A DNA stretch of 64,000 nucleotides from Thioploca ingrica (lineage in GTDB: Bacteria; Pseudomonadota; Gammaproteobacteria; Beggiatoales; Beggiatoaceae), in contig AP014633.1 in the NCBI GenBank assembly GCA_000828835.1, positions 3,286,001 through 3,350,000 on the forward strand, in the 5' to 3' direction. The position numbers were made by a program, and so were the translations under genes. The notes under the pieces were generated by a model. The model made no database searches. It had not been told where the DNA came from and worked only from the letters and a program-made list of their open reading frames with translations. Positions 43,052 to 64,000 of the stretch are shown piece by piece (position 1 is the first letter of the stretch; every line of letters starts with the position of its first letter).

Positions 43052-43093
43052 AATTCATTTTACACTAAATTTATTTCACACTAATTTCGATAT

Positions 43094-43735: not shown

Positions 43736-43841
43736 GTTTTCCTATTGGTGTATGTGAACTAGGGTCTGTCACTCACTCATTCGTCATTATTATTACACCA
43801 TGAAAACAATTTCACCATGTATTTATTTAGCTATCTATAGA

Positions 43842-44480: not shown

Positions 44481-44658
44481 GTTGTTGACCTCCATAAATG
44501 AGTGAGCACGGTTATTTAAGTCGGTATTTTTAACTTGATTAACATCATTATAACAATCTTCTCTCTCTCAATACTTATCTCTACTTAACTTCTGTATTTT
44601 TAATTTTATAAACTTACTATACTATAGTATCATTTTCTTTTTTTACTGCCTATATACA

Positions 44659-46232: not shown

Positions 46233-46466
46233 GATAAACAGTTAACTCCTGAGTTAAGGGGTATAATAAAATGAATTATCTCCAGCCAGTTTCATCTTAA
46301 TCGTCAAATAATTATTTCTTTAGGTAGAATGGTAAAGACATTAATGAATTAACTTATAAAGTTAAAACAATATGTTGAACTATTTAAAACAGTATAAGAC
46401 TAACACCACGATTATAAAATAGGAATGGATGAGTCTTGTGTGAGTTATTATTTAGTTTTTTTTAGT

Positions 46467-47182: not shown

Positions 47183-47204
47183 GAAACAAAAAATTTAATA
47201 TATT

Positions 47205-47704
47205 TGGTCGAGTTTAGCCGGTTTTCTGAATTCAGCCGCTGGCGTGATATCATGCCGTTGACCCGCCCTCAAACTAAAGCGTAGCGGATTGCCCAGGCCA
47301 TCAACACTAAATATGAATTTGGGTACTAAAGCCACCTTTACTGCGTCCTAATACTTGCTCAGCTTGACTTTCGTTTTTTTTAAGACACCAGAGGCACCAG
47401 GATGAGCACGCACAATGGTGCTATCGAGAATCAGATGTTCCATGTCCGGGTTATCGGCAAAATGTTGATGCCGTTGGTGCCAAATCCCCTTATCGCTCCA
47501 ACGGGCAAAGCGTTTGTAGACACTATTCCAATGGCCGTACGGTTCCGGCAACCGCCGCCATTGGGCAACGCTGCGGACGATCCAGAGCACGCCTTCCATA
47601 AAACAGCGGCACGGCTCCTCCTGACCCACCTAAACTTTGCGAGTAGAGCGCAAGAACTTCAGTAGTTTGGCCCATGGTTCATTCTTGAAGCTTATTGTTG
47701 ACAT
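47205..47704 (-). pseudogene. IS5-family transposase remnant
   Basis: Starting at ATG 47704 the minus strand reads MSTISFKNEPWAKLLKFLRS and hits a TAG after RKV, where a Tyr codon is expected. It then continues [40 protein letters not shown] and [18 protein letters not shown] with the first DDE-type Asp. After a stop near 47348 a shifted frame resumes [13 protein letters not shown] and VDGLGNPLRFSLRAGQRHDI. The C-terminal third is missing, ending beside the IS630 element. This is an inactive remnant with at least one stop, one frameshift and a truncation. Confidence 0.85.
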
Positions 47705-48015: not shown

Positions 48016-49647
48016 TCATGAATCGTTAGCAGGCGTTGAAATTTGCACTTCGCCGTTATGGATTTCCCAAACCCGGTCAGCCAGATGAAAAAATAGCTTG
48101 TTTTGAGTGACTACGACTACCGTTTTTCCTTCATTGCGTAAATCTTCTAAGATTTCTTCATAAAACAATTGGGTAAATTCATCATCTCTGCCTCCACTAC
48201 AGTCGTCAAAGAGATAGATTGGACGTTTTTGCAATAACATGGAAACTACCATCAGCCGCCATTGCTGAGTGTGAGACAGGGGCGCATAGTTGAACTGGCC
48301 ATCCGCGTATTCCACCGTTTCCTTCAAGCCAATTCTTTCCAACAAGGCCTGAACCCAGGCTGGGTCAGGTGGGGTTTGGGAGGTAGGTATTGTGCTGGGT
48401 GGTGGCGTATCCCGGAAAGCGCTCACAAATAAATGACGATAATAGGGGTAATCGAGGTCTGTTACTTTACGCTTGTCTACGTACATGGAGCCGGTATCCG
48501 GAGCATATAAACCACACAGCAACTTCAACAAGGTGGTCTTGCCGCTACCACCGGGGCCATAGACAAAAATAACTTCCCCCTGGTGGACGATTAAATTGAT
48601 TTCCTTAAATAATCCTTTTTCGCTGGAATAGGCAAAACTCGCGCTGGCTAGGCGGAGTTCCTGGAAGTCTGAAGCAAACCCTTTATTTTCTGCCTCTGCC
48701 CCGCCGTAATTCGGTTTTGCTGTATCTAGACGTGCTTCAAACGCATAAACTGAAGACAAGGCGACATCCAGGCGTAATAACAACGGCAGGGCATAAACCA
48801 GTTGCGTAATAGGACCCATGATAAAAAATATGACCACGGTGATTTTGAAAAGCAGTTCCACCTCATCTGGATCATAAATCGGTACAATGAACAAGAAAAT
48901 CGCAAGTAAGATAAACAAGACGATTCTGGTAGACATGATGGAACTGATGGTCTGTTTGTCCACGGTTAGTTTCAGTTCTTCACTTTGTGTTGAAATAGTT
49001 TGCGCAGACGCGAGAAAATCTTTCCTTTTCGCGTGATTAAGTCTAAGTTCTCCAGCATCGCGTGAGAGGATTTCTAAAAGTTGGGAAAACTCCAGTTCTT
49101 TAGCAGTGATACTACAGAATTCATGAGGTACCGGCTTTTCCACAAACAGGTGCCATAACACGGCTACCGCGAGGGTAAGCGAAATAATTAAGAAACTGGC
49201 TACAGACAACCACGCCAGGTAAATTAAACAAAACCCTAAAATCACCGTGGCTTGCGCTGAATACGTGATCCACGGTAACAGTTGGGCGGCTAAATTGATT
49301 TCGTGGGAAAGTTGATGGTAAAGTTCGCTGTTAGAAATGGTCTCGAATTCGCGCAAGTCACATGACCCGGCTTTGGCAACGAGGCGCAGGCGCAGTTTAT
49401 AGAGGGCGTTATCAAGTGGGTAAATCGTGTTCGCCAGGGAATATTTCTGGGTGTAGATGTAGAGCAGGAAAACCACTAAATACAGAAACAGTATCCTTCC
49501 TTCCACCGTTTGCGTGAGCACAGTATCCGCCGCATGATTAATCACGGAGACCAAAAGACCAGTAGCCAAGCCGGAAAAAATCAGCATGAACACAATACGA
49601 TTGCTGACAATCTCGGATTCCTGTTTGATGAAATGATATAAACTCAT
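48016..49647 (-). CDS. SyrD/YojI-type cyclic-peptide ABC exporter with altered ATPase motifs
   Basis: The 543-residue half-transporter has six N-terminal membrane helices and a C-terminal ATPase domain. The ending FYEEILEDLRNEGKTVVVVT then FFHLADRVWEI is typical of the SyrD/YojI/PvdE group that exports siderophores and cyclic peptides. Walker A is intact (GPGGSGKTT, from residue 364). The signature is LSHTQQ (457) instead of LSGGQR, Walker B ends in FDD (480-482) where FDE is expected, and the H-loop His is Gln (TQNK, residue 515). The reading frame is nevertheless uninterrupted. It is divergent from the 71-residue protein gene. ATP hydrolysis may be slow or absent. Confidence 0.8.
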   Translation of the reverse strand: MSLYHFIKQESEIVSNRIVFMLIFSGLATGLLVSVINHAADTVLTQTVEGRILFLYLVVFLLYIYTQKYSLANTIYPLDNALYKLRLRLVAKAGSCDLREFETISNSELYHQLSHEINLAAQLLPWITYSAQATVILGFCLIYLAWLSVASFLIISLTLAVAVLWHLFVEKPVPHEFCSITAKELEFSQLLEILSRDAGELRLNHAKRKDFLASAQTISTQSEELKLTVDKQTISSIMSTRIVLFILLAIFLFIVPIYDPDEVELLFKITVVIFFIMGPITQLVYALPLLLRLDVALSSVYAFEARLDTAKPNYGGAEAENKGFASDFQELRLASASFAYSSEKGLFKEINLIVHQGEVIFVYGPGGSGKTTLLKLLCGLYAPDTGSMYVDKRKVTDLDYPYYRHLFVSAFRDTPPPSTIPTSQTPPDPAWVQALLERIGLKETVEYADGQFNYAPLSHTQQWRLMVVSMLLQKRPIYLFDDCSGGRDDEFTQLFYEEILEDLRNEGKTVVVVTQNKLFFHLADRVWEIHNGEVQISTPANDS

Positions 49648-49759
49648 ACTAAAACTTTATCTTTGATAGTCATACAGAAAAATATCATTTATAATTACTT
49701 TGCTTTCCCTAAAGGCTATTCCGTTCATCGTTTAGCAAATTACTTAAAGGAGTTTACCC

Positions 49760-49975
49760 ATGGGTGAAACGCAAATTGTACCCGCCACCGCCAGCACTAA
49801 AGTTACCGGTGGCTCTACCATGGCTTATCTGTCCGCTCATCCGCTGGGTGTCGTCGTTGTGGGCAGTCTGCTGTTAGGTATTGGCGCTTATTACTTTGGC
49901 AAAGCCATGGCTAATCGCGCCAACCGTAAGAAAGCAGAGCAAGTCGAAAAAGCAGTTGCTCCCGTAGCCGCTTAG
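49760..49975 (+). CDS. Small one-helix membrane protein, unknown function
   Basis: The 71-residue protein has a polar Thr/Ala-rich start of about 28 residues. One membrane helix with a glycine-zipper look follows (HPLGVVVVGSLLLGIGAYYF), and the tail is basic then charged and alanine-rich (GKAMANRANRKKAEQVEK). An excellent ribosome site (AAAGGAG) precedes the ATG, which supports a real gene. It is divergent from the exporter and convergent with the DUF697 gene. There is no Cys, no double-Gly leader and no core-peptide-like motif. I do not recognise the family. Confidence 0.7.
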   Translation: MGETQIVPATASTKVTGGSTMAYLSAHPLGVVVVGSLLLGIGAYYFGKAMANRANRKKAEQVEKAVAPVAA

Positions 49976-50019
49976 TTTTTGTACCGACTCCTCCGCTAAC
50001 CCGACTGGTTATTCAACAG

Positions 50020-50568
50020 CTAAGAAAGTGGGGGAGATTTTTGCGGAGGATGAAGCCCTTTTTGTGCTTGTTGTTTCAGTTCCGCCGCAATTTGTTTACC
50101 TTTCTCGAATTCTTCCTCGAAGTACGCTTTCGCTGTTTGCGCATCGAAATTGGAAAAATCGCCTCTGTCCTCGAAATGCCGCACCAACACCATGCCCAGT
50201 GCGTGCGTAGAAGCCACCCCCAGAATCAACATACTCGCCACCCCGGAAACTTGGCCTACTCCAGGAATAAATTTCACTAAACTCGCTAACAGCGGGGTAA
50301 CGGCCACCGGCAACACGCTGGCCACCAGGGATGCGATGGTGGCTTTACCTAATTCCGCAGAAAATTCTACACCGTAGACTTTGCTTAAGCTATGCAACAT
50401 TTTTAACTGGATGCCGGTCAATGCCGCCAAATCTAATAATGGGAACGGAAACACTGCTGGGGCTAAGGACGCTATGGTGTAGTTTTTGATTAGAATAACA
50501 CTTTCATCGCGATGAGATTGGCCCGTTTCGGGTGCATTGGGTTCTTGCACAGTTAGTGTGTCTGTCAT
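50020..50568 (-). CDS. DUF697-like membrane-associated protein
   Basis: The 182-residue protein has a polar N-terminus and a hydrophobic core (YTIASLAPAVFPFPLLDLAAL then TGIQLKMLHSLSKVYGVEFS, cited as two pieces). A Gly/Val-rich hairpin follows (SLVASVLPVAVTPLLASLVKF; FIPGVGQVSGVASMLILG). The C-terminal 50 residues are charged and probably coiled (AYFEEEFEKGKQIAAELKQQ). This resembles DUF697 domains, often attached to GTPases, but here the domain stands alone. Two hydrophobic hairpins suggest membrane insertion. It faces the 71-residue protein gene with a 44-base gap. Function unknown. Confidence 0.7.
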   Translation of the reverse strand: MTDTLTVQEPNAPETGQSHRDESVILIKNYTIASLAPAVFPFPLLDLAALTGIQLKMLHSLSKVYGVEFSAELGKATIASLVASVLPVAVTPLLASLVKFIPGVGQVSGVASMLILGVASTHALGMVLVRHFEDRGDFSNFDAQTAKAYFEEEFEKGKQIAAELKQQAQKGLHPPQKSPPLS

Positions 50569-50935
50569 AAGTTAACTCCTTAGTTAAATGCAATGATATT
50601 TTGTTATTATTCAGCCTAATGTCAATGCCGGCATCCAAGGTTATCCCTCAAAGAACCTGCGTATTACCTGCGTATTACCTGCGTATTACCTGCGTATTAC
50701 CACTTGGTTAAACGGTATGGATTAAAAATATGAATAATTTTTTCAAATTTAAGATTGCTGGTAATTTAATGATTATCCTGACACAATTTTCGGTTCATAG
50801 CTAGTAAGGGTAAATAGTTACATAAAATTTTATAACAAGGACTCTTCTTTATTTACCGGACACCAGAACTAACCGCTGGCCAATTACCAAGGACAACACC
50901 GGCGACGCGAATTACCTCCATTTTAATCATACCAG
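50569..50935. other. Non-coding gap with an 11-base tandem repeat
   Basis: No gene is supportable in these 367 bases, which lie upstream of the DUF697 gene and downstream of the binding-protein gene. It holds four perfect copies of an 11-base unit at 50656-50699. The rest is A/T-rich. Confidence 0.6.
50656..50701. repeat. Four perfect 11-base tandem repeats (CCTGCGTATTA)
   Basis: The unit CCTGCGTATTA occurs four times without mismatch from 50656 to 50699, followed by CC that starts a fifth. The period is close to one DNA turn, so repeated protein-binding sites on one face are possible. It lies about 90 bases upstream of the DUF697 start. Confidence 0.9.
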
Positions 50936-52540
50936 TTAAAATGCGCTTATGGCCTCCATAGATTCGCTGGGTTTTTCTGGACGCAGGATAATTCTATCAT
51001 CCACGATTTCAATCTGTTGGGTCTGTTGGATTTGCTCTTCTTCTTGTTTGGTATTTTTAAACAAGATAAATTCTTCGTGTTGCAGTTCTTTGAAATAAAT
51101 TGGCTTCTCCACCAACTCCCCGCTGTTCTCATAGGCATACATGCCGGTGGCCCCAATTTGGGGTCGCATGTAGCGCAGGCCCATAGTGATATTCACCGGT
51201 ATGGTGGAGTGCACTTCCTTGCTCATCGTGTAAGCCAACAACCTGACCGCGTCGTATCCTTGCGCGGCCCAGGTGTCCGGCGGGTGGCCATAGCGATTTT
51301 TATATGCTTTGACAAAACGGATATTTTCAGGATGTTTAGAAAACGGATTGTAGATAGAAGGCACCACTAAGCCGTTGCCTTCTTCGCCTACGGCCTGGGC
51401 GAAGGTATCTGAATCCAATGCGTCGGAACCGATTAGAGGTGCGGTTATCCCCATACCACGCAAATCTTCTACCACCCGCACCGCAGTCGAAGATTGGGTC
51501 GCTAAAAAAATGGCATCTAGCTTTAATTCTTTCATGTTTGCGGCGATGTCCATAAAATTTTCCTGCTCCTGGAAAAACGATTTTTCAAACACGATTTTCA
51601 AGTTATGTTCAATGGCATAATCTCGGAAGGCATAAGACAATTCTTCACTATAACTGTCGCGGCTGTACAGCAAAGATAAGTTCTGATAGTTTTTCAGCAC
51701 ACAAAAATTGACCAGTGCTTTGGCGAAATCGTCGTTATTGGGAAGTTGGCGGAAAATAAAACGCATTCCGTGGCGGATGACGTTGTTATTGGTGGCGGAC
51801 ACGGCAAGATATACAATGTTACTTTTCTCGTATGCGTAACTGAAGGGAATGGTTAAGGAAGAAGTTTGACGCCCAATAACCGCGCGGATTTTTTCATTAT
51901 CACGCATGCGCTTGGCAATTTCACGGGACTTATCCAAATCCATACTACTCGTCTCTATGTGAATGGCAAGTTTTCTGCCGAGTACGCCGTCCTGGTCATT
52001 GATTTCTTCCACCGCCAGTTTCAAGCCATTGAGAAAACTGATATCTCTATCATAACCGGACCAGATTACGCCAAGATGAATTTCCGAGACAAATGCCCGT
52101 ATCCTCTCAATCCAAGATTTTTTCTTCCAGTCCAGCCCAACCAATTTGGCTGCATTATAGAACCAGGAAGGAATCTCTGTGAACCAGGAAGAAATTTCGG
52201 TCTCCACCAGTTTGGCGCAGTTCCCCTCTTGATGACGAAGTTTCTGACAGTCCATTTTTCGCGCGTTGTAATTTGAGGCACCGATTAATTGAATGCAGCC
52301 CTCTTTTTGCTCAGGAAAAGATACACATTCTTTGTCTTTGTTTAGAAAAGCCTTGCAATCCTCACTATTTTGTTTGAATTGGTCCTGAAGCACTAACAAT
52401 CGGCATTCCGCCAAGGCATCCTCAATTTTTGCGAGGTTGGTTCTTTCTCTAGTATGCTCTTCCGGGGAAGAAGAGCACGCAGACAAAAGTAACAGCCCCA
52501 CAACGATCCACAACAGACCTGAATAAACGCAGGTGGTCAT
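50936..52540 (-). CDS. Periplasmic-binding (Leu/Ile/Val-type) lipoprotein
   Basis: The 534-residue protein has a lipoprotein signal ending in LLLLSACSSSPEE. A Cys-rich helical stretch follows (about residues 45-110, with CRLLVL, DCKAF, KECVSF, GCIQL, DCQKL and NCAKL). A type 1 periplasmic-binding fold runs from about residue 150 (IHLGVIWSGYDRDISFLNGL) through GVLGRKLAIHIE, AVIGRQTSSLTIPF and PDTWAAQGYDAVRLLA. Branched-chain-amino-acid receptors have this fold, but no transporter genes accompany it. Lipid anchoring and the paired SPFH gene 14 bases upstream suggest an envelope sensor. The C-terminus is Gln/Glu-rich. Confidence 0.8.
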   Translation of the reverse strand: MTTCVYSGLLWIVVGLLLLSACSSSPEEHTRERTNLAKIEDALAECRLLVLQDQFKQNSEDCKAFLNKDKECVSFPEQKEGCIQLIGASNYNARKMDCQKLRHQEGNCAKLVETEISSWFTEIPSWFYNAAKLVGLDWKKKSWIERIRAFVSEIHLGVIWSGYDRDISFLNGLKLAVEEINDQDGVLGRKLAIHIETSSMDLDKSREIAKRMRDNEKIRAVIGRQTSSLTIPFSYAYEKSNIVYLAVSATNNNVIRHGMRFIFRQLPNNDDFAKALVNFCVLKNYQNLSLLYSRDSYSEELSYAFRDYAIEHNLKIVFEKSFFQEQENFMDIAANMKELKLDAIFLATQSSTAVRVVEDLRGMGITAPLIGSDALDSDTFAQAVGEEGNGLVVPSIYNPFSKHPENIRFVKAYKNRYGHPPDTWAAQGYDAVRLLAYTMSKEVHSTIPVNITMGLRYMRPQIGATGMYAYENSGELVEKPIYFKELQHEEFILFKNTKQEEEQIQQTQQIEIVDDRIILRPEKPSESMEAISAF

Positions 52541-52554
52541 TATGGTGGGATTAG

Positions 52555-53511
52555 CTAGTTAACCGGGGGTTGTTTAGCTGAGGGGGATTTAGCTGAGGGG
52601 GGAGAGGCCGGGGAATCGGCGGGTGGCGGAGTAGTGGGTGCATTCCATTGATTTCCCAAAATAACGGGCAAACCTTGCTCGCCCGCGCCGATAATCACCA
52701 CTTTGGCGTTATTGGATTCGATAAGCCCCTGAGTCGCCTGGACAGCCTGCCATTTAATCAGCGGTTCGGAAATAGTTTCGGAGATGATAGCCTGATAGTT
52801 TTTAATCCCTTTAGCTTCGATTTCTCTGCGTTTAGCTTCTTGTTCCGCAACTTTCAACTTGTAGGTATATCGTTGCAAGACTTGTTCTTCCACCAACTTT
52901 TCTTCGATAGCTTGTTGCACCAATGGTGGTAGTTCCACCGAACGGATGATGATGTCATCCACAGTGACGTATTTGCGGCTGGTTTCCTCGGTTGCCAACC
53001 GCATGATCTTATTGAGGATGCCTTCTTTATTGTTATACACGTCTTCCGGCCGTAATTGGCCGATGTTTCTAAGCAATACAGAATCTATCTGAGGGATGAT
53101 GATTTTGTCCACATAATCTGGCCCCACGTTTTTGTGCAGCAGGGCTACCATGTCGGATTCAGGGCGGAAGCGAATTGCCAGTTTCAGGGTAATCGGCAGA
53201 CCTTGGTTAGTCAATACAGTCAGTTCGTGCAGTACCGTTTGCACCCGCATATTGTAAATGTACATAATGTCCCAGGGCCAGATGAGATGAAAGCCCTCGG
53301 AATAAATATAGTTGATTTCGGTACCGGTAGTCAGGAGCCGGTATAAAACCCCAGCTTCCCCGGAGTGGACGATAATGAATATCCGCCAGAAGAAAAAGAT
53401 GACGATGAAGAGAAGGGTCAGAAAAATGACCACAAAATAGGGAATTTTGTCTTTTAGCCAATACCTAAAACCTTTTTTCAGATGAGATGATAGTGACTGT
53501 TGAGTATTCAT
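52555..53511 (-). CDS. SPFH/band 7 (prohibitin-like) membrane protein
   Basis: The 318-residue protein has one membrane helix (about residues 27-50) followed by an SPFH domain (VHSGEAGVLYRLL; GFHLIWPWDIMYIYNMRVQT; LKLAIRFRP) and a charged coiled coil (RYTYKLKVAEQEAKRREIEA). The tail after residue 285 is a low-complexity Pro/Ser/Ala run (TPPPADSPASPPSAKSPSAK). Prohibitin-like proteins form large membrane rings that organise lipid domains and protect or retain partner proteins. The 14-base spacing to the binding lipoprotein implies one operon, suggesting that this ring may scaffold that receptor. Confidence 0.85.
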   Translation of the reverse strand: MNTQQSLSSHLKKGFRYWLKDKIPYFVVIFLTLLFIVIFFFWRIFIIVHSGEAGVLYRLLTTGTEINYIYSEGFHLIWPWDIMYIYNMRVQTVLHELTVLTNQGLPITLKLAIRFRPESDMVALLHKNVGPDYVDKIIIPQIDSVLLRNIGQLRPEDVYNNKEGILNKIMRLATEETSRKYVTVDDIIIRSVELPPLVQQAIEEKLVEEQVLQRYTYKLKVAEQEAKRREIEAKGIKNYQAIISETISEPLIKWQAVQATQGLIESNNAKVVIIGAGEQGLPVILGNQWNAPTTPPPADSPASPPSAKSPSAKQPPVN

Positions 53512-53709
53512 GCCATCCCAACGGGTAAAGAATTGAGGTCAATGTCTAAGTAATTGAATGATAAGTAAACGCTAATTGAACGTTTATTACTAACTTTTTG
53601 ATTTATAATAACTCTATTCCTTAACTTAATGGCGGTGGGTGCCTACCGGTGCAGTTTCCTTTTCTAAGGAATTAATTATACTATAGGATATTGATAACGG
53701 GGAAGTCTT

Positions 53710-54844
53710 ATGAGTACTTTACACAGTATTATTATTAAACCTATCGGGTCTTTTTGCAATCTGAACTGCCAATACTGCTTTTATCTGGACAAACAACATT
53801 TGTACACAGGCTCGCCGTCTACCCATAAAATGGATGAAACCACTCTGGATAAACTCATCCGGCAACTGTTCGAATGCTCCAATTATCCGACTTTTGTGTG
53901 GCAAGGTGGCGAACCCACGGTGATGGGTTTAGATTTTTTCCGTCACGCGGTGGAATTGCAAAAACACTACGCAAAAGGCCGGACTTTTTTCAATGCCTTG
54001 CAAACCCATGCCATGTTATTGAACGAAGATTGGGCCAAATTTCTCAAGCGGGAAAATTTCTTGGTCGGAGTTTCTCTAGATGGCCCGCAACCTATACATG
54101 ACCATTATCGCCTGGACCGCCAGGGCTGCGGCACCTTTCACCCCGTTTTCAACAACGCTAAAATGCTGATGCAGCAAGAGGTGCCGGTGAATGTGCTGGC
54201 GACTGTCACCGATTACTCGGCACAGTACCCCGAATAAATTTATCGGTTTTTCAAGGACAACGGGTTCATTTTCATGCAATTCAGCCCGGTGGTGGAGCTA
54301 GATCCCAAACATCCCAATCGGGCCGCACCGTTTTCCGTCACCGCGAAACAATACGGGCGTTTTTTGGTCAAAGTGTTCAAGTGTTGGTACAAAGACTTTG
54401 ATTATCGCCACCTCAAGCAAAAAACCTCGGTTCGGTTTTTCGATTCCCTGATGCACCGTTATGTTGGTATGGTACCGGAATCACTGCGCTTTGCAGGAAA
54501 AATGCAATGTATATCTCGTGGTGGAGCACAATGGCGATTTGTTTTCCTGCGATTTTCTGGTGTCGGAAGAGACTCGCCTGGGAAATCTGCATGAAATCTC
54601 TTTGCAACAGGCCTTCAACTCACCCGCTCATATCGCCTTTGGCCTACGTAAAGCAAATTATGGCGAAAAATGCCGGCGTTGCCAATGGGTAAAGTTGTGC
54701 TATGGCGGTTGCATCAAAGACCGACTTCATGATCCGCGCGACCACGGGCATAACCATTTTTGCGAATCCTACAAATATTTTTTCGAGCGGGTGGACGGCC
54801 AATTCAAAGAACTAGCCGATTTGTATCTACGCCATTATCGTTGA
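53710..54844 (+). pseudogene. Anaerobic sulfatase-maturase-like radical SAM/SPASM gene, disrupted
   Basis: The N-terminal part contains KPIGSFCNLNCQYCFYLDK, with the CxxxCxxC iron-sulfur motif of radical SAM maturases, and FVWQGGEPTVMGLDFF. A TAA at 54235-54237 stops it after residue 175. The same frame resumes IYRFFKDNGFIFMQFSPVVE. An extra base at 54484 then shifts the frame, after which CALQEKCNVYLVVEHNGDLF, SCDFLVSEE and CRRCQWVKLCYGGC of the SPASM domain continue to 54844. Such enzymes convert a Cys or Ser of sulfatases to formylglycine. Two lesions make a functional protein unlikely unless they are sequence errors. Confidence 0.85.
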
Positions 54845-54940
54845 ATGCCACGGAAACGCAAAGTACGTTAGGAATGCAAAAATTTTTTAATAAACAGCCC
54901 CTCCGAAATTCTCGGCGTTGAATTTTTAAAACTCACCGTC

Positions 54941-57900
54941 CTACTTCGGTGCTTGCCGAGCCGGTTCGGATTTCGCACTCCCATCCGCTTCGTCTTCCAT
55001 CATGGAGGTGGCCTTCGATGGCGGTGATTTCACTACCGTCCCAACTACAAAATCTACCATCGTTTCCGGTACCGCCAACACTGGAGTCTGCTTGCCTTCA
55101 GTTAATTCGCTGACCCGACTAGAAACGTAGTTTCCCATTTCCAGTAACTTCAATTGTCCGTCCCCATCGTGGTCGGCTTTACCGTTCAGAGCCTCCAGCA
55201 AAGCGGTGATGAATAGGCTATGATGGCCCCCCTCTTCCGTTTGTGAGGACTGTGTCCCTACCGCAGAGGAAAACACGATGATGCCGTTTTCTGGACTGCT
55301 CAATTCATTAGCAAAACCGTCAACATCGGCGGGACTGAGTTCTGTGGATTTCACTCCGAGGGTATTGAAATAAGCCGTGTCCATGAATAGCAATACTTTA
55401 CTTTGCATGCCGCTAAATGCTTCTCTGAGCACGGTAGTGGAAATCGTGTTGCTAGTGGGCGTGGCATTGGCAGGCAGAAAGAAATAAGAGTTTTTACGGG
55501 TGTCCTCGTGTTGCAGGGAGTGCCCGGCAAAAAATACCATCACCACGTCTTCCGGCTTGGCCTCCTGGCGTAACCAAGCCAAGTCGTCCATAATTTCAGT
55601 ATGACTGCTGTCAGCTAGATGTTTCACTTTGATCTCACGATAATACTTGGTTTGCTGTGCCCACATCGCGGCGAACCTCGCGGCATCCTCGCGTGCAAAT
55701 GGTAAATCGCCAAGGATTTTGTCGGTGTAATCACTGATTCCAATGCTCAACACATACAACACGGGTTGCACTGAGGGGGACGGTTTGCCTTTCCAATTCA
55801 GTAGAGCCAGTTCGGGAGGAGAAACGCCATGCACGTTTTTCGCTATCAGCGCAATTTCTACGGTACGTTGGGGTAGGATCACAGGGATTCGTCCTTTGGC
55901 TGGATCGGCTTGTTCCGTAGCCTTGATGGTGTGCCACGGACGCCCATCCACCATGAGATACAACTCTGCCGGAGATGCTTCACCGTGAAAACGGAACTGG
56001 TATTTCACTTCTATTTCTGGGCTTGAAAACTCCTCGCCATCTTTAGGTGCTTGCAGCAGTACCCGTGGGGGAAATACTTTGGGTGTGTCCGGTATGGGAA
56101 CAGTCTTATCTTCAGAGAGTGTAGCCGCAATCTCGGCACCGGTTGTTTTGATTGGTGACAGAGAGTTCTCGGTTAAGGCTTGAATTAGAGTTTGCGGTTG
56201 GTAATAACGCCCCCGTAGGCTGCGTACTGGGAAAAAATCTGCAGCCTGTTCTGGTTTGTTATTGACATGCCAACCAAGCAGGGTATCTGCACCTACCGAA
56301 GCGGCATATATGCCCACCGGGGTCCATGCTACCCAGCGGCGACGGTCAGCGTGGGGATACAAGGCCAGGAGTTCGCTACCATCCTCCAACTTAAACCAGC
56401 GTAAGGTGCTGTCGCTGAACGCAGCCACTAAAATTTTTCCATTGGCGGCAATGTTTACTGCCCACACAATACCCGGCGACTCTTTCTGCCAAAGCATTTG
56501 GCCTTTCTGGTTGTAATGATACAAGCGAAAGCGAGTACCTAATACCAGCGAGTCCCCAACCGGAGAAACCGCATAACTGATGGCAGTATCGTTCTTTTTC
56601 AGAGACAAAGGGTTGCCGTTTAGTTGTGGGTACGCAGAGTTTTTCCAGGATTTAATCTTTAGAGCCGGGGTGTCCAGAGTGGGAGGAAAGACTTCAGTTT
56701 GTTTTTTAACAAGCGTCTCTTCCGCTAGCAACGCTATAATTGTGGGCGGGTCCAACTTGCCGTTGGGGGGCAAACTCATGGCTTGCTGAAATTTTTTGAT
56801 GGCGGTGCGGGTCAACGATCCCATGAGATTGTCCACCGGCCCTGGGAAGAATTTTTTCTTTATTAGATAGCGTTGAGCCTCACCGACTTCTAAATGTTCC
56901 GCTGCGGGGTTTACTGCAGTGGGTACGGGCGTAGCGGGTGCTTCCGACGCTTCACGATGTACTTCGAATAAACGCCTTTCTGGTAGGGAAAAACGCATCC
57001 GGGTTTGTTGATCCAGGGTATCATATTCAAACTGGACCACTTGAGCATCCTCAGAGACTAACAAGCCGTCCGGAAAAATTTTATTGAAATACACGGTTTC
57101 CCGGCGACGAGTTAGAATTTCCTTGCCGTTGGCGTCGAATATACCCCAGCTTGGGGTGCTATCAACATAAAGAACGCGCTGATTTGCCAGGGTACTTAAA
57201 CTCATTATCGTATTCCAGGCTGTCGGCCATTCAGCCGGTGTAGTATTCTTTCCGGCTTTGGGCCACTGTAAGACATTTAACATACTATCTCGTTTATAAC
57301 CGCCACCACCATATAGAAACTCGCCGTCTCGCGACCAAGCGGTGATGAACAGATCGCCATTCCCACCATCCCCGGGAGTTGCCCAATACAATAAGGACAA
57401 ATCCTTGGTAGCCACTACTGCCACGCGTGCATGGTCGATGAAACCTACCGCAATTTTCTCACCATCTGGGGAAAAACGCACCGCAAACGGTAACTTCTGT
57501 TCAGCGATTTTGGCTTTATGCCTCAATTGCAGGTTTCCTTTCTGACTATCATGCGCATACAACCGGATATATCCGTCATAACTGCTGCTCACTAGTTGTT
57601 TACCATCCGGGCTGAATTCAACCCAATAGCTGTCCCCTGTATAATCCACATCGCGGAGAACCTCGGTTAAATTCGAGCGACGCCACACACGGATACCATT
57701 GTTACCGGAGAGCACCCCAGCTAGATATTCGCCATCCGGGGAAAAATCTAGGTGTAGTACAACATTTTCAAGGCCAATCAGACGGTTGACGATCTCCCCG
57801 TTAGAAGTATCGAATAAATATATATTATGATTGCCGAAGCCCCGGTAGCCACCCTTAGTCCAACCCCCGGTGGCGAGCAGGAAACTGTCTGGGGATATGG

Positions 57901-58189
57901 CCACAGCAAATAGCTTGCCTTCGTTACCGATGCCGATAGGTGGACGCAGTACCCGATATAGACGACCGCCGGCGAGCAGGTCCCACAGGCGCACAGTCTT
58001 GTCATCCGAAGCAGTCGCTAATATGGTTTCAGCGGCATCCAGGTCGATACGGTTGATTATCTCGGTGTGCATAACCGGATTAAGACGTAGAAAAGCTGCA
58101 CTTTCCGCCGCGGTGCATGGAAAAATAAACAGTGCTAAAAGGACCAGCATAATTTGAGGAGTGTACGACCAATAAGTGAGATATTCCAT
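54941..58189 (-). CDS. WD40/peptidoglycan-binding/caspase-fold protein with catalytic Cys replaced by Ala
   Basis: The 1082-residue protein has an N-terminal signal (LVLLALFIFPCTAAESA), so it is extracytoplasmic. WD40-type repeats occupy about 45-390 (ILATASDDKTVRLWDLLAGG; VEFSPDGKQLVSSSYDGYIR), a peptidoglycan-binding domain about 433-492 (TRTAIKKFQQAMSLPPNGKL), further WD-like blades about 520-650, an Ig-like region about 715-800 and a caspase p20-like domain from about 811 (YVLSIGISDYTD). His890 (FFAGHS) is kept. The catalytic position in LLFMDTAYFN is Ala939 where DxCHSG-type proteins have Cys. The enzyme site is therefore dead while the fold and frame are intact. It lies 75 bases after the TolC-like gene. 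Confidence 0.88.
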   Translation of the reverse strand: MEYLTYWSYTPQIMLVLLALFIFPCTAAESAAFLRLNPVMHTEIINRIDLDAAETILATASDDKTVRLWDLLAGGRLYRVLRPPIGIGNEGKLFAVAISPDSFLLATGGWTKGGYRGFGNHNIYLFDTSNGEIVNRLIGLENVVLHLDFSPDGEYLAGVLSGNNGIRVWRRSNLTEVLRDVDYTGDSYWVEFSPDGKQLVSSSYDGYIRLYAHDSQKGNLQLRHKAKIAEQKLPFAVRFSPDGEKIAVGFIDHARVAVVATKDLSLLYWATPGDGGNGDLFITAWSRDGEFLYGGGGYKRDSMLNVLQWPKAGKNTTPAEWPTAWNTIMSLSTLANQRVLYVDSTPSWGIFDANGKEILTRRRETVYFNKIFPDGLLVSEDAQVVQFEYDTLDQQTRMRFSLPERRLFEVHREASEAPATPVPTAVNPAAEHLEVGEAQRYLIKKKFFPGPVDNLMGSLTRTAIKKFQQAMSLPPNGKLDPPTIIALLAEETLVKKQTEVFPPTLDTPALKIKSWKNSAYPQLNGNPLSLKKNDTAISYAVSPVGDSLVLGTRFRLYHYNQKGQMLWQKESPGIVWAVNIAANGKILVAAFSDSTLRWFKLEDGSELLALYPHADRRRWVAWTPVGIYAASVGADTLLGWHVNNKPEQAADFFPVRSLRGRYYQPQTLIQALTENSLSPIKTTGAEIAATLSEDKTVPIPDTPKVFPPRVLLQAPKDGEEFSSPEIEVKYQFRFHGEASPAELYLMVDGRPWHTIKATEQADPAKGRIPVILPQRTVEIALIAKNVHGVSPPELALLNWKGKPSPSVQPVLYVLSIGISDYTDKILGDLPFAREDAARFAAMWAQQTKYYREIKVKHLADSSHTEIMDDLAWLRQEAKPEDVVMVFFAGHSLQHEDTRKNSYFFLPANATPTSNTISTTVLREAFSGMQSKVLLFMDTAYFNTLGVKSTELSPADVDGFANELSSPENGIIVFSSAVGTQSSQTEEGGHHSLFITALLEALNGKADHDGDGQLKLLEMGNYVSSRVSELTEGKQTPVLAVPETMVDFVVGTVVKSPPSKATSMMEDEADGSAKSEPARQAPK

Positions 58190-58264
58190 CCTAGGGACTC
58201 CAACGTAAAGTTATTGGGCAAGATCCAATCTAACTGCTCTAAGAAAATCGGTCCGGTTAAAATT

Positions 58265-59851
58265 TTACCAACCGGGTAAGGTGCTCAGATTCGCCAGATC
58301 CGCTTCCCCACTGGTTTCATTGGTAACAATCAGGGTCCCCGTGTTAAAACGGGCCTTAGTGATGGCGCTTGCCAAATCAGCTAAAGCACGTGCACCGTCC
58401 CCTCTGGCTTCGAGGTATTTGTTTTCGAGTTCCATGATGGTGAGCAATTTCGTTTCGTCTTGCAAAACGGCACTGTCACTCAGCAAATCTTCCAAGGCCT
58501 GCCGGTACGCCAGGATGGTTTCTCTCACCTGCACGGCTTTTTGCATGCGTCCGTACACATTGCTCAGATCGTTCTGCATGTCTAACCGGATGGAGCGAAT
58601 TTTTTCGTCAGTATCAAGGGCTTTTTGTTGATAGTCTGCTTGGTTGAGTTCTAGGGTTCCACCGGCGATATCATTGCCGAAAGGATAGCTCAGCGTTAGA
58701 CCCGCTGAGTAGTCCATGCCGTTTACGTTTTTATAATAAGATTCGGTAAAGCGATCAAAATCGTTGTACTGAGAAAAACCGTTGTACCCCGTGCCCAGAC
58801 TCAAATTCAACTGTGGCAGCACATCTTTGCGGGCTTTGTCCAGATTGACCTTGGCAATCTTCTGACGCAGACGCGTGGCTTTTAAATCCAAACGTTTGTC
58901 CTCCGCTTCGCGTAACCAAATGTCTTGAAGCTTCTGGTGATCGAAGCGGTTGACAGCCTCTTTCCATTCCAGCGGAAAATCAGCAACCGGCTTGCCCAAG
59001 GAGTCAAGTTGTTGGGCTGGAATACCTATCACGGTTGCTAGCGCAATTTTCGCTTCGTCCAGGGCTTGTTGCGTGTCGATAAGTTTGCCTTTTTTATCTT
59101 CTAGATATCCGTGCAGATTGTGGCCCGAGGCACTGGCACGTTCAATCCAGTTTTGGACACGTTGTTTAGATTCTTGTACCCGTTCTAGGTACCAACGTGT
59201 ACTAACGTAGTTCCAGAAGTTGGTAACGGTATCCAATACCGTGGCGGATATCTTGTATTGAAAATCCGCTAGCGTTGCTTCGTAATTCAAGCCAGCGGCC
59301 AATTCCGCTGCTGCCGCTGAAACCCGCCCACTACCTTTGAGTAGAGGCACAGTGACCGTAAACTTGACACTGGTTTTATTGGTAGTCAGGCCCAAGCGAC
59401 TTAGCATATCCGGGTCGGCTTGCAGAGTTGTTACCGACAAATCAGTGGCAACCCCCGTTCGGAAGGATTTCACTAGACCGGTGGACAAGCTGCTGTTCGT
59501 GCTCTGGATTTCTATATCCGTTGCGCTGGGGGGCAGTAAGGCCCTGTCGGTGGGATGCAGACTCTCTACGTCCAAGATTTTAGTAGTGGAGTGACTGCTG
59601 TTAATAGCGATCCGGCCATTGACGTTAAACGCCCCTGAAGCGATGCGTGTACCGGCCTTGGCTTTTTCCACCCCGAGTTGTTGCAAGCTGATATTGGGAG
59701 AATTTTGTAAAGCGATTTTTACTACTTCGGGTAACGTAAATTCACCGCTATCTCCACCGGCGGGAGTATCTGAGGAGAAAACCGGCACTGATAAATTTAG
59801 CCAAATTAAACAGCAACTGGCCGGAACCACTACCAAACTATTTTTTTTCAT
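58265..59851 (-). CDS. TolC-family outer membrane efflux protein
   Basis: The protein starts at ATG 59851 behind AGAGG (528 residues). An upstream Met at 59884 adds eleven unneeded residues. A signal peptide (MKKNSLVVVPASCCLIWLNL) is followed by FTLPEVVKIALQNSPNISLQ, the typical opening of the outer membrane efflux fold, and by coiled-coil helices (ATRLRQKIAKVNLDKARKDV; LDTDEKIRSIRLDMQNDL) with short beta-barrel segments (LSLGTGYNGFSQYNDFDRF). It forms trimeric outer-membrane channels. It is divergent from the sulfatase gene and directly upstream of the caspase-like gene, making it the probable outlet for the exporter at 48-49.6 kb. Confidence 0.88.
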   Translation of the reverse strand: MKKNSLVVVPASCCLIWLNLSVPVFSSDTPAGGDSGEFTLPEVVKIALQNSPNISLQQLGVEKAKAGTRIASGAFNVNGRIAINSSHSTTKILDVESLHPTDRALLPPSATDIEIQSTNSSLSTGLVKSFRTGVATDLSVTTLQADPDMLSRLGLTTNKTSVKFTVTVPLLKGSGRVSAAAAELAAGLNYEATLADFQYKISATVLDTVTNFWNYVSTRWYLERVQESKQRVQNWIERASASGHNLHGYLEDKKGKLIDTQQALDEAKIALATVIGIPAQQLDSLGKPVADFPLEWKEAVNRFDHQKLQDIWLREAEDKRLDLKATRLRQKIAKVNLDKARKDVLPQLNLSLGTGYNGFSQYNDFDRFTESYYKNVNGMDYSAGLTLSYPFGNDIAGGTLELNQADYQQKALDTDEKIRSIRLDMQNDLSNVYGRMQKAVQVRETILAYRQALEDLLSDSAVLQDETKLLTIMELENKYLEARGDGARALADLASAITKARFNTGTLIVTNETSGEADLANLSTLPGW

Positions 59852-60077
59852 TATTAACCTCTTTAGGAAGTTTCTTGAATTCATTTGTTAAATTTAATAT
59901 CTTAACAAAGTTTAGCAATAAGTTAAAGACGCTTGTAGGCTTCACCACGCCAAAGATCTCTTGAGCAAACCAAAAGGTTCCACGCGTAAAATGAAAAATA
60001 CTGAAATTTTAGAATAAGTTAGGATTTCATTAAAATCTAAACTCTTGTGAAGGTAAAATTAATAGGATAAATCTTTC

Positions 60078-62077
60078 ATGCTAAGAAAAACTGCCGTTCT
60101 TTCCCTCTGCGCCGCTGCGGCGATTTTCAGTGTAACTCCTTTGTCTCAGGCTATTGCTAAAGAGTTAAAAAGGCCCCATTTTGTGACTATCGTCATCGAC
60201 GACATGGGCTTTTCCGATCTAAGCTATTTCGGCGGCGAAGTGCCTACCCCAAACCTAGACCAATTAGTGGAAGGCGGCATTGCCTTGACTAACTTTTATT
60301 CGGCCCCAACTTCGAAGTCTTACAGCAAAACGGCTATCAAACGATGATGACCGGCAAATGGGACATGGGCGAAAAACCGGATCAGGATGCACAGGTTCGG
60401 GGGTTTGAAATGACCAAAGGCTTGTTGTTGCCAGGTGGAGATACCCACTATATCTCCGATAAAAATGGTAAGGTGAACACTACTCTTCCACCTTCATACT
60501 ACCAAGATCTTAACCGCACTTCGCCTTATAGTGAAAGCGGTCAGGAAGTCACTCAGTTTCCCCCTAATGCTTACTCTACCGAATATTACACAGACAGTGC
60601 TATCGCCCTGTTGCAAAACCGGGACATCAGCAGACCGTTTGCCTTGAATGTCGCGCATATTGCCCCCCACACCCCCTGGCAAGCACCTCCGGAAGTGAGC
60701 GCCAAATATATCGAGACGTATTCGAAAGGTTGGGATGTGCTGCGCCAGGAACGTTTCGAGCGCTTGAAAGCCAGTGGCATCTTGCCCGTAGATGCGAAAT
60801 TGCCGTCCCGCCCCGAGGGATTGCGTGCTTGGGACAGCCTAACTCCCACCGAACAAAGTGTAGAAGCAAAACGCATGGTTGTGTACGCAGCTATGATTGA
60901 AATGTTGGATAACAGCGTAGGTAGGCTTTTGAATTACCTAAAGACTAGCGGTGAATATGAGAACACCGTAATCTTGGTTTATTCTGACAATGGCGCAGAA
61001 AGTGTTGCTGCCGCTTTGGCCTATGAGCCTTCCCGTTCTGCTACCATAAAAAACTTCAACACTTTGGAAGCCGGTGATTTTGATCCCAACAAGCTAGCTA
61101 ATATCGGGGATGCCAGTTGGTATTTTGGTCCGAATAAAGAGTGGGCAATGCTTTCTAATACACCCTTCAATAAGCATAAAGTCACCCTGTTTGATGGTGG
61201 TTTTCATGTGCCGGCTTTTATCCATTATCCACAAGCTAAAGTTTCTGGGATAAAATACGATTGTATGCATTCCATTTTGGATTTTATGCCCACGATCCTG
61301 GACATGGCAGATACTTCCTACCCCACCACCTGGAACGACAAGCCTTTGTCACCTCTGCCAGGGGTTTCTATGGCGGGATTGTTTCAAGGGAATTTTTCCT
61401 GTAATGCCGACCGTTGGCTGACTTTGGAGTTCGAAGGGATGAAAGCGGTTCGCCATGCTGGTTGGGCACTGTCTCAAGCTCGTTTTGACAATACCTTGCA
61501 TCTGTTCAATCTGGAGCAAGATCCCTATGAGCGTAACGATCTTGCCGCGCAAAGGCCAGACAAGCTAGCTGAACTGTTTGATCATTACCAACAGTATGCG
61601 GAAGAAAATCAGGTGGTTGAGGTCAGCGGCAGATGGTATCCGCCCTTAAATACAGTAAGTACCGCTACCGCAAACACCGATGCCGGGGTTTATGGCGGAG
61701 TTGCCTCTAACGGTATCCCCTTGTGGTTGAAAGCAGTCAACGCTAAGCAAAGCGATATACTTGATGTCGGCGGCTTTGTACACATAGCTAAGGAACATGT
61801 AGGAAACCCGGGGGAATTCTTCGTCCACATTAAATATACCCAGTCAGATGATATGCCACCCGTTTATTTTGCCCTAACTGACCAAGGGCTTCATAAGCAA
61901 TCTACGGCAGAAGGCTTGCCTACTTTTCAAGCCGGTACTCTGCCACGCAGTCTACCCATTCCTATTTACCAGGGAACACTTGTAGACATTCCCGGTACGT
62001 TTGAAATACTCATAGGCTATCGCGTGGATGACACGGAAGTGCTAGGTAGTGACCCGATTATTCTCACTGTTGAGTAA
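60078..62077 (+). pseudogene. Secreted formylglycine-type sulfatase gene with deletion of the catalytic Cys region
   Basis: The 5' part has a signal peptide (LCAAAAIFSVTPLSQAIA) and the sulfatase opening HFVTIVIDDMGFSDLSYFGG, ending NFYSAPT. At 60306-60313 the frame breaks and sulfatase sequence resumes in another frame as FEVLQQNGYQTMMTGKWDMG, skipping the stretch that should hold the C-x-P-S/T-R formylglycine motif and about 65-75 residues. Later motifs are present (VILVYSDNGAE metal site; FNKHKVTLFDGGFHVPAFI). GKWDMG carries Asp where GKWHLG is usual. The rest, 577 residues, is open. The catalytic core is lost, so it cannot act as a sulfatase. Confidence 0.88.
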
Positions 62078-62111
62078 GTCCACGTAATTCATTTAGCAAC
62101 CAGGTATAGTC

Positions 62112-63305
62112 ATGTTAAATATCGATTTTTATCAGGAAGCGTTATTGGAACCGGATTTCCAATTTCGGGCGTTTTCACCACTTACCTCAAAACCAGAGGC
62201 TGTATTTCTAACCGGCGCCACCGGATTTCTGGGAGCGCATTTATTGTCTGAACTCCTTGAGCAAACGAACGCCAAAATTTATTGCTTGGTTCGTAACAAC
62301 GCGCATCTAACGGAAAGGCAACAACGCCTCAAAAGTACGCTGCAGTTTTATACACTCTGGGAAGATGAATTTGAAACCCGTATTATTCCGGTGGCCGGCG
62401 ATTTATCCAAACCCTGGATGGGTATTCCTCAACTAGAATTCAAGGCGCTTGCAGAGCAGATTGAAGTAATTTACCACAGTGCCGCTTTTGTCAATTTCAA
62501 TCGTCCCTACTCGGTACTGAAAGCGGTCAATGTTCAAGGCGTTCGCGAGATACTTCGATTGGCTATGGAGATCACGACTAAACCACTCCATTTTGTTTCC
62601 ACCACCGCGATTTTTTCAAGCCAAACTAGCTCCCTAAACAATAGGGTGATGGAAACGGATTTTCCGCCTCCCAACGAACTTCGGAATGGATATAACCAAA
62701 GCAAATGGGTTGTGGAAAAACTGCTTGCCAATGCTCGTGAACGAGGCTTTCCCGTATCGATTTACCGCCCCCCTGGCATTATGGGGCATAGCCAAACGGG
62801 AATTATAGGGAATTTGGATGACGATCCGTGGTGCACACTCATTAAAGGTTGTATTCAGTTAGGATCCTTTCCGAATTTAGATATAACGGTAGCTTTTGTT
62901 CCCGTGGACTATGTTAGTCGGGCCATGATCTATTTGTCCTTACAGAACACTTCTACGGGTAAAGTTTTTCACCTGGTCAATCCGCATCCACCCGTGGCCT
63001 GGAAAGATTTGTTCGACCTGATTCAGGCCATCGGCTATCACCTGGTCGAAACGCCTTATGATGAATGGCGTGCGCAAATTAAACAACACGCTATGAATAA
63101 TCCTCAAAATAAACTGGATGCGCATTTGTTTTTACTGGCGCAGTCTCAAATTTTTGCCGCTAAACCTCATTTTGATGCGAGGCATACCCTCCAAGGGTTA
63201 GCGGGGAGCAGTATTGAATGCCCTCAAGTAGATACCCGATTGATTTCAAAATATTTCTCCTATTTTCACCGAAGTAACTTTATATCTATCCCTTGTCGTA
63301 CCTAA
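62112..63305 (+). CDS. Stand-alone thioester reductase domain (NRPS-type R domain)
   Basis: The 397-residue protein is a short-chain-dehydrogenase-like reductase of the male-sterility/thioester-reductase type: Rossmann GATGFLGAHLLSELL, DLSKPWMGIP, VIYHSAAFVNFNRPY, FVSTTAIFS and the catalytic Tyr/Lys pair in GYNQSKWVVEKLL, followed by YRPPGIMGH. Such domains release a carrier-bound acyl chain as aldehyde or alcohol. The N-terminal segment (DFYQEALLEPDFQF) resembles the linker after a carrier domain. No carrier or adenylation domain precedes it in this gene, so it acts in trans or is a fragment of a split synthetase. It begins 35 bases after the sulfatase stop. Confidence 0.85.
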   Translation: MLNIDFYQEALLEPDFQFRAFSPLTSKPEAVFLTGATGFLGAHLLSELLEQTNAKIYCLVRNNAHLTERQQRLKSTLQFYTLWEDEFETRIIPVAGDLSKPWMGIPQLEFKALAEQIEVIYHSAAFVNFNRPYSVLKAVNVQGVREILRLAMEITTKPLHFVSTTAIFSSQTSSLNNRVMETDFPPPNELRNGYNQSKWVVEKLLANARERGFPVSIYRPPGIMGHSQTGIIGNLDDDPWCTLIKGCIQLGSFPNLDITVAFVPVDYVSRAMIYLSLQNTSTGKVFHLVNPHPPVAWKDLFDLIQAIGYHLVETPYDEWRAQIKQHAMNNPQNKLDAHLFLLAQSQIFAAKPHFDARHTLQGLAGSSIECPQVDTRLISKYFSYFHRSNFISIPCRT

Positions 63306-63306
63306 A

Positions 63307-63499
63307 ATGAAAACCAAACTAATTGTTGATTGTGACAAGGGCTTCAATCCGGTTATTTCGCAACCGTTGGAACAACTTTTAACCGGCATGGTGGCAGTCC
63401 TTGGCAAGCCTGGCACAGTGATTTGAGTGGATAGGGGTAAATACTCGTGGAGAGAAAGTGGTTATTGTTCATGAAGATAAAGTGCTTTTTAAAGGGTGA
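63307..63499 (+). pseudogene. Small gene with one-base frameshift, unknown family
   Basis: An ATG two bases after the reductase stop opens a frame of 39 residues (MKTKLIVDCDKGFNPVISQ then LLTGMVAVLGKPGTVI) and ends at TGA 63424-63426. Skipping one base at 63424 continues smoothly as EWIGVNTRGEKVVIVHEDKV to a stop at 63497-63499. The composition on both sides is similar and protein-like, suggesting a single protein of about 63 residues with an inserted base. I do not recognise it. It could be a small partner of the reductase. Confidence 0.45.
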
Positions 63500-63592
63500 G
63501 TACAAGGTCGATTTCTAAACGGATACTAAGTGGTCTCCAAGAAGATCTTCATTCAGTAGGGCGAGAATCCTTTCTCGCCTAAATAGCTGATG

Positions 63593-64000
63593 CTACAGAT
63601 TGGACGCTGCTTCCAATAAAGTCTGTAAACGCTTGACTAGGGACTGAGCATCTTCGTTTTCGAACCAGGATTTTCTGTAGAAACAGTTACCTTTGAGCGC
63701 AATGCCTTCGGGCGTTTTTTGTTCCTGGATAACTAAACTGAGGTTGGGTCTCATGACCAGTTCGTCAGTAACCATGGTGAGCGATTCCGTTACGTCGAAT
63801 TTCACTTTCTTGGCCGGCAAGTTCGTTCCGGCGACGGATAGGGATAGGGGTATATAACTGAGCAGGAAGTGGAATAAGATCTCGCCCGGTTTAGCTTGGA
63901 TGCCCAACTTTTGTATTCCTTCCAGGATAGTCATAAATTGCCGGGATTGTGCTTCCAAAAATACCCGGCGTGTCAGGTAGAGCAATTCCCTAAACCCGGA
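63593..64000 (-). CDS. C-terminal fragment of a condensation-domain-like protein (start outside window)
   Basis: The frame is open to the window edge on the minus strand (Ser-Gly-Phe-Arg-Glu-Leu before the first listed Met-type codon), so this is the 3' end of a longer gene, with 135 or more residues shown. The segments LFHFLLSYIPLSL, VKFDVTESLTMV, MRPNLSLVIQEQ and ALKGNCFYRKSWFENEDAQ resemble the end of an NRPS condensation domain, where FDL and YxxxLF are typical. It is convergent with the reductase gene. The call is tentative because the HHxxxDG site lies outside. Confidence 0.5.
   Translation of the reverse strand, partial: SGFRELLYLTRRVFLEAQSRQFMTILEGIQKLGIQAKPGEILFHFLLSYIPLSLSVAGTNLPAKKVKFDVTESLTMVTDELVMRPNLSLVIQEQKTPEGIALKGNCFYRKSWFENEDAQSLVKRLQTLLEAASNL

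Follow-up and report, generated by a model that had tools for sequence, protein, structure and literature searches.

Nonribosomal peptide synthetase (NRPS) clusters with SyrD/PvdE-type exporters are known for syringomycin and pyoverdine, but the way in which such giant synthetases are tied to the membrane and to their export route is still poorly understood. Here we analysed a stretch of 64,000 nucleotides (the window) of the closed 4.81-Mb genome of Thioploca ingrica (AP014633.1, positions 3286001-3350000), together with the sequence behind it (L007), in which the window coordinates were continued past 64 kb. The analysis showed that the last 16 kb of the window and its extension carry an NRPS pathway, intact by sequence, and a conserved five-part membrane module, namely an SPFH protein, a binding lipoprotein, a DUF697 protein, a one-helix protein and a SyrD-type exporter. 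Judged by gene neighbourhood, this module recurs across phyla, often near NRPS-type genes. The locus resembles the SyrD/PvdE clusters in joining an NRPS to a TIGR01194-type exporter, with genes for type II thioesterase (TEII), phosphopantetheinyl transferase (PPTase) and diaminobutyrate (DABA) aminotransferase in relatives, whereas the SPFH, DUF697, one-helix and lipoprotein genes are additions which, to our knowledge, belong to no described SyrD or PvdE system.

Proximity labelling with the balhimycin exporter Tba picked up an SPFH paraslipin, and an anchoring of biosynthetic enzymes in microdomains was proposed for that one producer (PMC11960670). Both cases place an SPFH protein near an ATP-binding cassette (ABC) exporter of an NRPS product, there by proximity labelling and here by a conserved gene neighbourhood of SPFH with exporter, DUF697 and lipoprotein. 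The products of the flotillin/NfeD and HflKC operons are inner-membrane SPFH ring proteins, as the present one is predicted to be, but the SPFH partner in the present loci is a Leu/Ile/Val-type binding lipoprotein, a context not reported in the available portions of a P. aeruginosa SPFH survey (PMC13086221). No NfeD was found among the Pfam-annotated neighbours of SPFH, for which no NfeD profile was run. Our literature search, which lacked most subscription papers, found no description of SPFH with DUF697 or of the full set. SPFH microdomain proteins and NRPS exporters are thus known kinds, and their conserved combination appears to be undescribed.

Conservation of the membrane module

A scan of 84,980 species genomes, made with an alignment of the SPFH protein alone, gave 79 loci, many of them from Beggiatoaceae of the family search described below. 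Because only SPFH was used for selection, the neighbours in these loci were not selected for; they were scored with profiles built from Beggiatoaceae loci. The loci include those of Thioploca, Thiomargarita, Parabeggiatoa, Methylococcales, Thiothrix, Thalassomonas, Pseudoalteromonas, Delftia, Roseiarcus, Roseospira, Mariprofundaceae, Magnetococcales, Electrothrix, Desulfatitalea, Verrucomicrobia and others. The results showed that the lipoprotein gene was present in 70 of the 79 loci, in 64 of which it directly adjoins SPFH in the same orientation, DUF697 in 46, a small protein (f9) in 36, the SyrD-type exporter in 36 (by profile) and the one-helix protein with its AHPxG motif in 9; a C39-peptidase/ABC pair replaced the exporter in 6. 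Genes for NRPS, polyketide synthase (PKS), TEII or PPTase were found in the flanks (within 10 kb) of 24/79 SPFH loci and in none of the 14 controls (Fisher p 0.010). For an exporter under strict scoring, the counts were 29/79 and 0/14 (Fisher p 0.003). The controls were 14 Beggiatoaceae loci around the Bbp actin gene, a small and not ideal set from a single family and shorter on average. An AAT-like (6-APA acyltransferase-type) protein of about 450 aa was also seen in 11 of the 79 loci (L129, L124, L131, L123, L138, L086 and L078 among them), with a weak PF03417 match in one copy.

In Skermanella, Azospirillum and Tistrella the set directly adjoins NRPS genes. Skermanella pSM-2, an annotated plasmid, carries DUF697, a hypothetical protein, TEII, a cyclic peptide exporter, a prohibitin-family protein, MbtH and three NRPS, with a DABA aminotransferase close by. 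The genes in Azospirillum brasilense are those for an NRPS, a dioxygenase, two ABC exporters, TEII, DUF697, a 65-aa protein and a prohibitin-family protein, after which come a cache-domain protein and a chemoreceptor gene, and a Rhodobacteraceae plasmid has PPTase, an ABC protein, a prohibitin-family protein and DUF697. On Tistrella mobilis pTM3, an unannotated record, we found DUF697, f9, SyrD, SPFH and TEII, then a 54-kb NRPS/PKS cluster; this is probably the didemnin cluster, an identification offered as a lead.

Within Beggiatoaceae, 58 relatives were searched. An SPFH gene with strong similarity was present in 27 genomes, and the lipoprotein gene was its neighbour in 24 of them; the three exceptions were one contig end, one contig break and one case on different contigs. 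SyrD orthologues were found in 24 further genomes of the family, and DUF697 directly adjoins the SyrD gene in 8 genomes. Homologues of the one-helix protein, found by its family profile (f8), adjoin SyrD, DUF697 or SPFH in at least nine other loci. In a closed Beggiatoa-like genome (G029), one compact stretch runs through P-ATPase, lipoprotein, DUF697, SPFH, AMP-ligase, carrier protein, radical SAM, sulfotransferase, DUF481 protein, chorismate-lyase-like, condensation, methyltransferase, A-MT-T NRPS and two sulfatase genes, and has nine gene families in common with the Thioploca ingrica cluster.

The NRPS and the cluster beyond the window

An earlier reading made from the letters of the window alone (the sequence-only reading) had listed a SyrD-type exporter, a TolC-like channel, a thioester reductase, SPFH, a lipoprotein, DUF697, a one-helix protein and a caspase, and every one of these genes was found at or near the place given for it; the maturase remnant and the sulfatase pseudogene in Table 1 had been overlooked. 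Its condensation-like domain at 63593-64000 was real, being the C-terminal end of an NRPS that runs to 69370 (L007:1593-7370). In Pfam, this NRPS, N-methylating by its domains, has a condensation (C) domain, an adenylation (A) domain with an inserted methyltransferase (MT), a thiolation (T) domain and a second C domain, and its core motifs (HHLIVDG, TSGSTG, NGKIDR, GGHSL and the MT motif) are all intact. A release enzyme and stand-alone partners are present, namely the thioester reductase (TGATGFLG and YNQSK intact), an acyl carrier protein (ACP) with GLDSV and an AMP-ligase. The sequence past the NRPS encodes a methyltransferase, a lysylphosphatidylglycerol (LPG)-synthase-like protein, a MamK-family actin between two P1B-like ATPases, the ACP, another methyltransferase, the AMP-ligase, an Rv2949c-like chorismate lyase (4-hydroxybenzoate synthase-like), a sulfotransferase, a carbamoyltransferase and a HemN-like radical-SAM protein.

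The cluster reaches 21 kb past the window. With this extent, and with core motifs preserved in synthetase, carrier protein and thioester reductase alike, the suggestion of synthetase remnants or a decayed lipopeptide pathway was incorrect as far as the synthetase is concerned. The sequence-only reading had also proposed a comparison of gene order in relatives and an extension past 64 kb, and would have been given up for homologues in unrelated places without conserved pairs and for a lack of synthetase genes beyond that point; conserved pairs (SPFH-lipoprotein above all) and an intact NRPS with ACP were found instead. Its view that the genes belong together in envelope sensing or export was supported by the gene pairs conserved across phyla.

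Table 1 Features of the 48-64 kb region of the window, with the NRPS gene followed into the extended sequence
Feature	Coordinates	Strand	Evidence
SyrD/PvdE-type ABC exporter, fused transmembrane (TM) + ATPase, 543 aa	48016..49647	-	TIGR01194, PF00005
One-helix protein, 71 aa, AHPxG-VVVG motif (family f8)	49760..49975	+	f8 profile E 1e-12
DUF697 protein, 182 aa, all-helical	50020..50568	-	PF05128 39.3 bits
Lipoprotein, Leu/Ile/Val-type ligand-binding domain	50936..52540	-	Peripla_BP_6 114 bits; lipobox LLSAC
SPFH/prohibitin-family protein, one N-terminal TM helix	52555..53511	-	Band_7 96.8 bits
Anaerobic sulfatase maturase, broken	53710..54844	+	TIGR03942 209 + 113 bits, two pieces
WD40 - PG_binding_1 - pseudo-caspase, 1082 aa	54941..58189	-	Pfam
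TolC-type outer membrane channel	58265..59884	-	OEP 74 bits
Ser-type sulfatase pseudogene	60078..62077	+	PF00884; reading frames
Stand-alone thioester reductase	62112..63305	+	TIGR01746 332 bits, above cut-off
3' end of 1925-aa NRPS (C-A-MT-T-C)	63593..64000, on to 69370	-	Extended sequence, Pfam

Proteins of the module

Read along the minus strand, the SPFH gene is followed after 14 bp by the lipoprotein gene, after a further 367 bp by DUF697 and after another 372 bp by the SyrD-type exporter, the plus-strand one-helix gene sitting between the last two. The WD40/peptidoglycan-binding/caspase gene lies upstream of SPFH on the same strand, and then the TolC-type gene, 75 bp away.

The SPFH protein scored far above the Pfam cut-off of 23.6 for Band_7, as a protein with an SPFH/prohibitin superfamily domain does, and its nearest solved structures in the PDB were the prohibitins 9urz/8rrh. 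The ligand domain of the lipoprotein was nearest to the Leu/Ile/Val-type receptors 4mlc/4q6b (E 9e-54). Its lipobox is LLSA/C, with Ser at +2, a residue that normally directs a lipoprotein to the outer membrane, and several of its relatives have an OmpA-like C-terminus. The exporter matched TIGR01194 with 232.8 bits over 516 residues, under the curated cut-off of 286.2, so it is not filed as a member; its domain layout suggests that it would nevertheless act like a cyclic peptide export ABC transporter, and its Walker A sequence is GPGGSGKT. No Pfam family was found for the one-helix protein.

The AlphaFold2 (AF2) model of DUF697 was all-helical (pLDDT 84), and a fold search with it against the PDB gave no match with E <1. 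Fusions of DUF697 were seen in relatives, with a Peripla_BP domain in one and with dCache domains in two, which suggests that DUF697 may be the inner partner of a periplasmic sensor. One 957-aa protein of G004 (L021:1831-4704) consists of DUF697, a TM helix, Peripla_BP and a C-terminal part for which several TM helices are predicted; by eye, this last part resembles a ligand-gated channel.

Pseudogenes and accessory genes

The caspase had been called dead, and the domain indeed keeps the His and has Ala in place of the catalytic Cys (D-T-A-Y), unlike an active Peptidase_C14. The Cys to Ala change was seen in four genomes, one relative having lost the His as well, and five paralogue loci in Beggiatoaceae retain D-x-C. 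Because the Ala is kept in four genomes while the paralogues keep D-x-C, the domain is predicted to be a conserved pseudo-enzyme and not part of a decaying gene. The caspase goes with SPFH in the closest relatives alone: its gene adjoins SPFH in Thioploca ingrica, G001 and G012, and only there.

The partial decay of the locus proposed earlier was borne out for two genes, the synthetase being intact. The maturase has an in-frame stop at about 54235 and a frameshift near 54480. In the sulfatase, the frame changes at about 60312; the N-terminal frame ends at YSAPT, the next open frame restarts at EVLQQNGYQTMMTGKWD, and the active-site segment is missing. This segment was deleted here, since the intact relatives in the G029 cluster, which are 43% identical to the pseudogene, carry it with its S-T-P-S-R motif between the two frames. 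Decay thus appears limited to the sulfatase and its maturase.

In G014 and G031, the TolC gene closes a run of genes of the same kinds as in Thioploca ingrica, namely those for AMP-ligase, carrier protein, sulfotransferase and the chorismate-lyase-like protein. It adjoins an NRPS in G017 and G024 and pairs with DUF697 in G017, G026 and G036, and the thioester reductase gene adjoins a P-ATPase gene in G020 and G008.

At L007:10883-16312 (72883-78312 in extended coordinates), the two P1B-like ATPases flank the MamK-family actin and a 122-aa TM/coiled-coil protein. Both ATPases begin with a lone hydrophobic helix and have CSN and NSHP instead of CPC in TM6; general models match them, the metal motif is lacking, and relatives carry other variants of it. 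P-ATPases were found in 16/79 SPFH loci and are multicopy in Beggiatoaceae, therefore their proximity is partly a matter of chance, and they are not claimed as a core part of the module. The actin (L007:12947-13954) scored 364 bits with NF040964, below its cut-off of 400. By sequence it fits the description, in the available portions of the source, of Bbp ('big bacteria protein'), a MamK-like actin from Thioploca among others that is tied to large cell size and not to NRPS (PMC10580974); the Thioploca ingrica actin lies inside an NRPS/P-ATPase cluster. It was dropped as a core part, 14 Bbp loci having no SPFH in reach. Actins of the Bbp type, about 60% identical to the Thioploca ingrica copy, were also seen no more than 10 kb from the SPFH module in L104, L123, L131 and L138. 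The hosts of these loci are Mariprofundaceae, two gammaproteobacterial metagenome-assembled genomes (MAGs) and Thiothrix singaporensis, and the available portions of that paper do not mention such a gene context.

Discussion

We consider it somewhat more probable than not that SPFH, DUF697, the one-helix protein and the sensor lipoprotein form a membrane platform which organises the exporter of the NRPS product. The enzymes would build a small aryl/N-methyl-aminoacyl compound, sulfated inside the cell, probably with 4-hydroxybenzoyl and N-methylated amino acid parts. SyrD would carry this product over the inner membrane, and the TolC-type channel would take it out. SPFH could form a prohibitin-like ring that collects exporter, DUF697 and one-helix protein, while the lipoprotein would face the periplasm, bind a small ligand, either amino-acid-like or the product itself, and tune the platform via DUF697. 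The WD40-peptidoglycan-binding pseudo-caspase may be a lineage-specific scaffold, and the sulfatase and maturase, which elsewhere would trim the product, were presumably lost in Thioploca ingrica. A wider claim is put forward only tentatively, as possible rather than probable: the five parts may be a dedicated, horizontally spread machine of many bacterial classes, which docks NRPS/PKS lines to an exporter and senses the released product, joined in large sulfur bacteria by metal-motif-less P-ATPases and actin.

In favour of the platform are the conserved neighbourhoods in Beggiatoaceae and across phyla, the excess of NRPS-type genes and exporters over the control loci, the clusters of Skermanella, Azospirillum, Tistrella and G029, the sensor fusions of DUF697 and the intact NRPS motifs, with the paraslipin near Tba as a precedent. 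Several observations weigh against the platform. The one-helix gene lies on the strand opposite to its module neighbours. In 55/79 SPFH loci, some of them cut by contig ends, no scored biosynthetic gene was found in the flank, and the SPFH-lipoprotein pair may work without NRPS in some loci. Biosynthetic genes were present in 19/54 loci with DUF697 or SyrD and in 5/25 without (p 0.20), a weak enrichment. In G001, of the same genus (L019, contig 70), SyrD and the pseudo-caspase are each in two open reading frames, through loss in progress or an assembly error, and TolC and thioester reductase gave no match; SPFH, lipoprotein and DUF697 are intact there.

Such loci are what a general envelope-sensing complex would leave, in which lipoprotein sensor, SPFH ring, DUF697 and small helices watch the membrane or an extracellular ligand, the exporter and synthetase being guests and the NRPS link frequent but not functional. 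This is the strongest rival, because more than half of the SPFH loci, including most with the SPFH-lipoprotein pair, have no such genes in reach and G001 retains the module although TolC and reductase gave no match there. The sensor fusions of DUF697 and the genes after the Azospirillum prohibitin gene agree with it as well. Against a general sensor speaks the recurrence, in roughly half of the loci, of an exporter, either of the cyclic-peptide type (36/79 by profile) or a C39-type ABC pair (6 more). Genes for TEII, PPTase, DABA aminotransferase or MbtH are likewise found repeatedly next to the module, and we regard this rival as rather unlikely.

An organelle-type system is improbable in our view, in which the P1B-like ATPases, the MamK-like actin Bbp, SPFH and small helix proteins would build an intracellular membrane compartment holding the NRPS enzymes. 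The two P-ATPases and the actin within one cluster, the Bbp-like genes near SPFH in other hosts and the P-ATPases in other SPFH loci would suit it; against these stand the 14 Beggiatoaceae Bbp loci without SPFH, only two of which have a P-ATPase, the multicopy nature of the ATPases, and the link to large cell size, not to NRPS, already drawn for Bbp in the available portions of PMC10580974. An analogy to ferrosomes was kept as a weak rival only, no matching gene set being found in the literature and the P-ATPases lacking canonical motifs. Very improbable, finally, is a partly decayed lipopeptide pathway into which unrelated envelope genes were inserted by chance. The broken sulfatase and maturase, the transposase-like fragments at the left border and a third-codon-position GC (GC3) unlike that of the 1-42 kb genes are in its favour, but it is largely refuted by the conserved gene order and the intact synthetase motifs, the envelope genes being conserved neighbours across phyla and contiguous with the same pathway genes in G029.

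The Thioploca ingrica locus itself is an NRPS cluster, and the conserved module that it revealed is widespread and directly testable. A conserved SPFH-DUF697-lipoprotein-exporter set near NRPS clusters of many bacterial groups gives the microdomain-anchoring idea named genes, and the platform could be tested in culturable Azospirillum, Tistrella and Beggiatoa. If true, it would be the first role for DUF697 and for the prohibitin-like subgroup seen here, and the set could help to locate biosynthetic clusters that have so far gone unnoticed.

Composition and borders of the cluster

By its genes, the region is the left half of one putative biosynthetic and export cluster, which spans roughly 48.0-85.6 kb when the window numbering is continued; at its right end, placed by eye, ordinary-metabolism genes start. 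The sequence-only reading had judged the region to be richer in GC than the pilin region, and the values agreed: 44-50% as against 35-37% at 42-46 kb, with 39-46% over 1-42 kb. The codon comparison that it had proposed gave a GC3 of 0.44-0.54 for the genes of the region and 0.28-0.42 for those of 1-42 kb. At the left border (46452-47675), where GC jumps from 35% to 45%, transposase-like fragments of at least two insertion-sequence types were recognised by eye. Three tandem type IV pilin-like genes at 42422-44495 (GC 35-37%, GC3 0.23-0.27) are unlike either flank, and a fourth relative of them lies at L008:6265-6846. Between the thioester reductase and NRPS genes, 63523-63579 is a dispersed repeat of about 57 bases with the inverted repeat GGCGAGAATCCTTTCTCGCC, of which the genome has five more copies at 79-88% identity.

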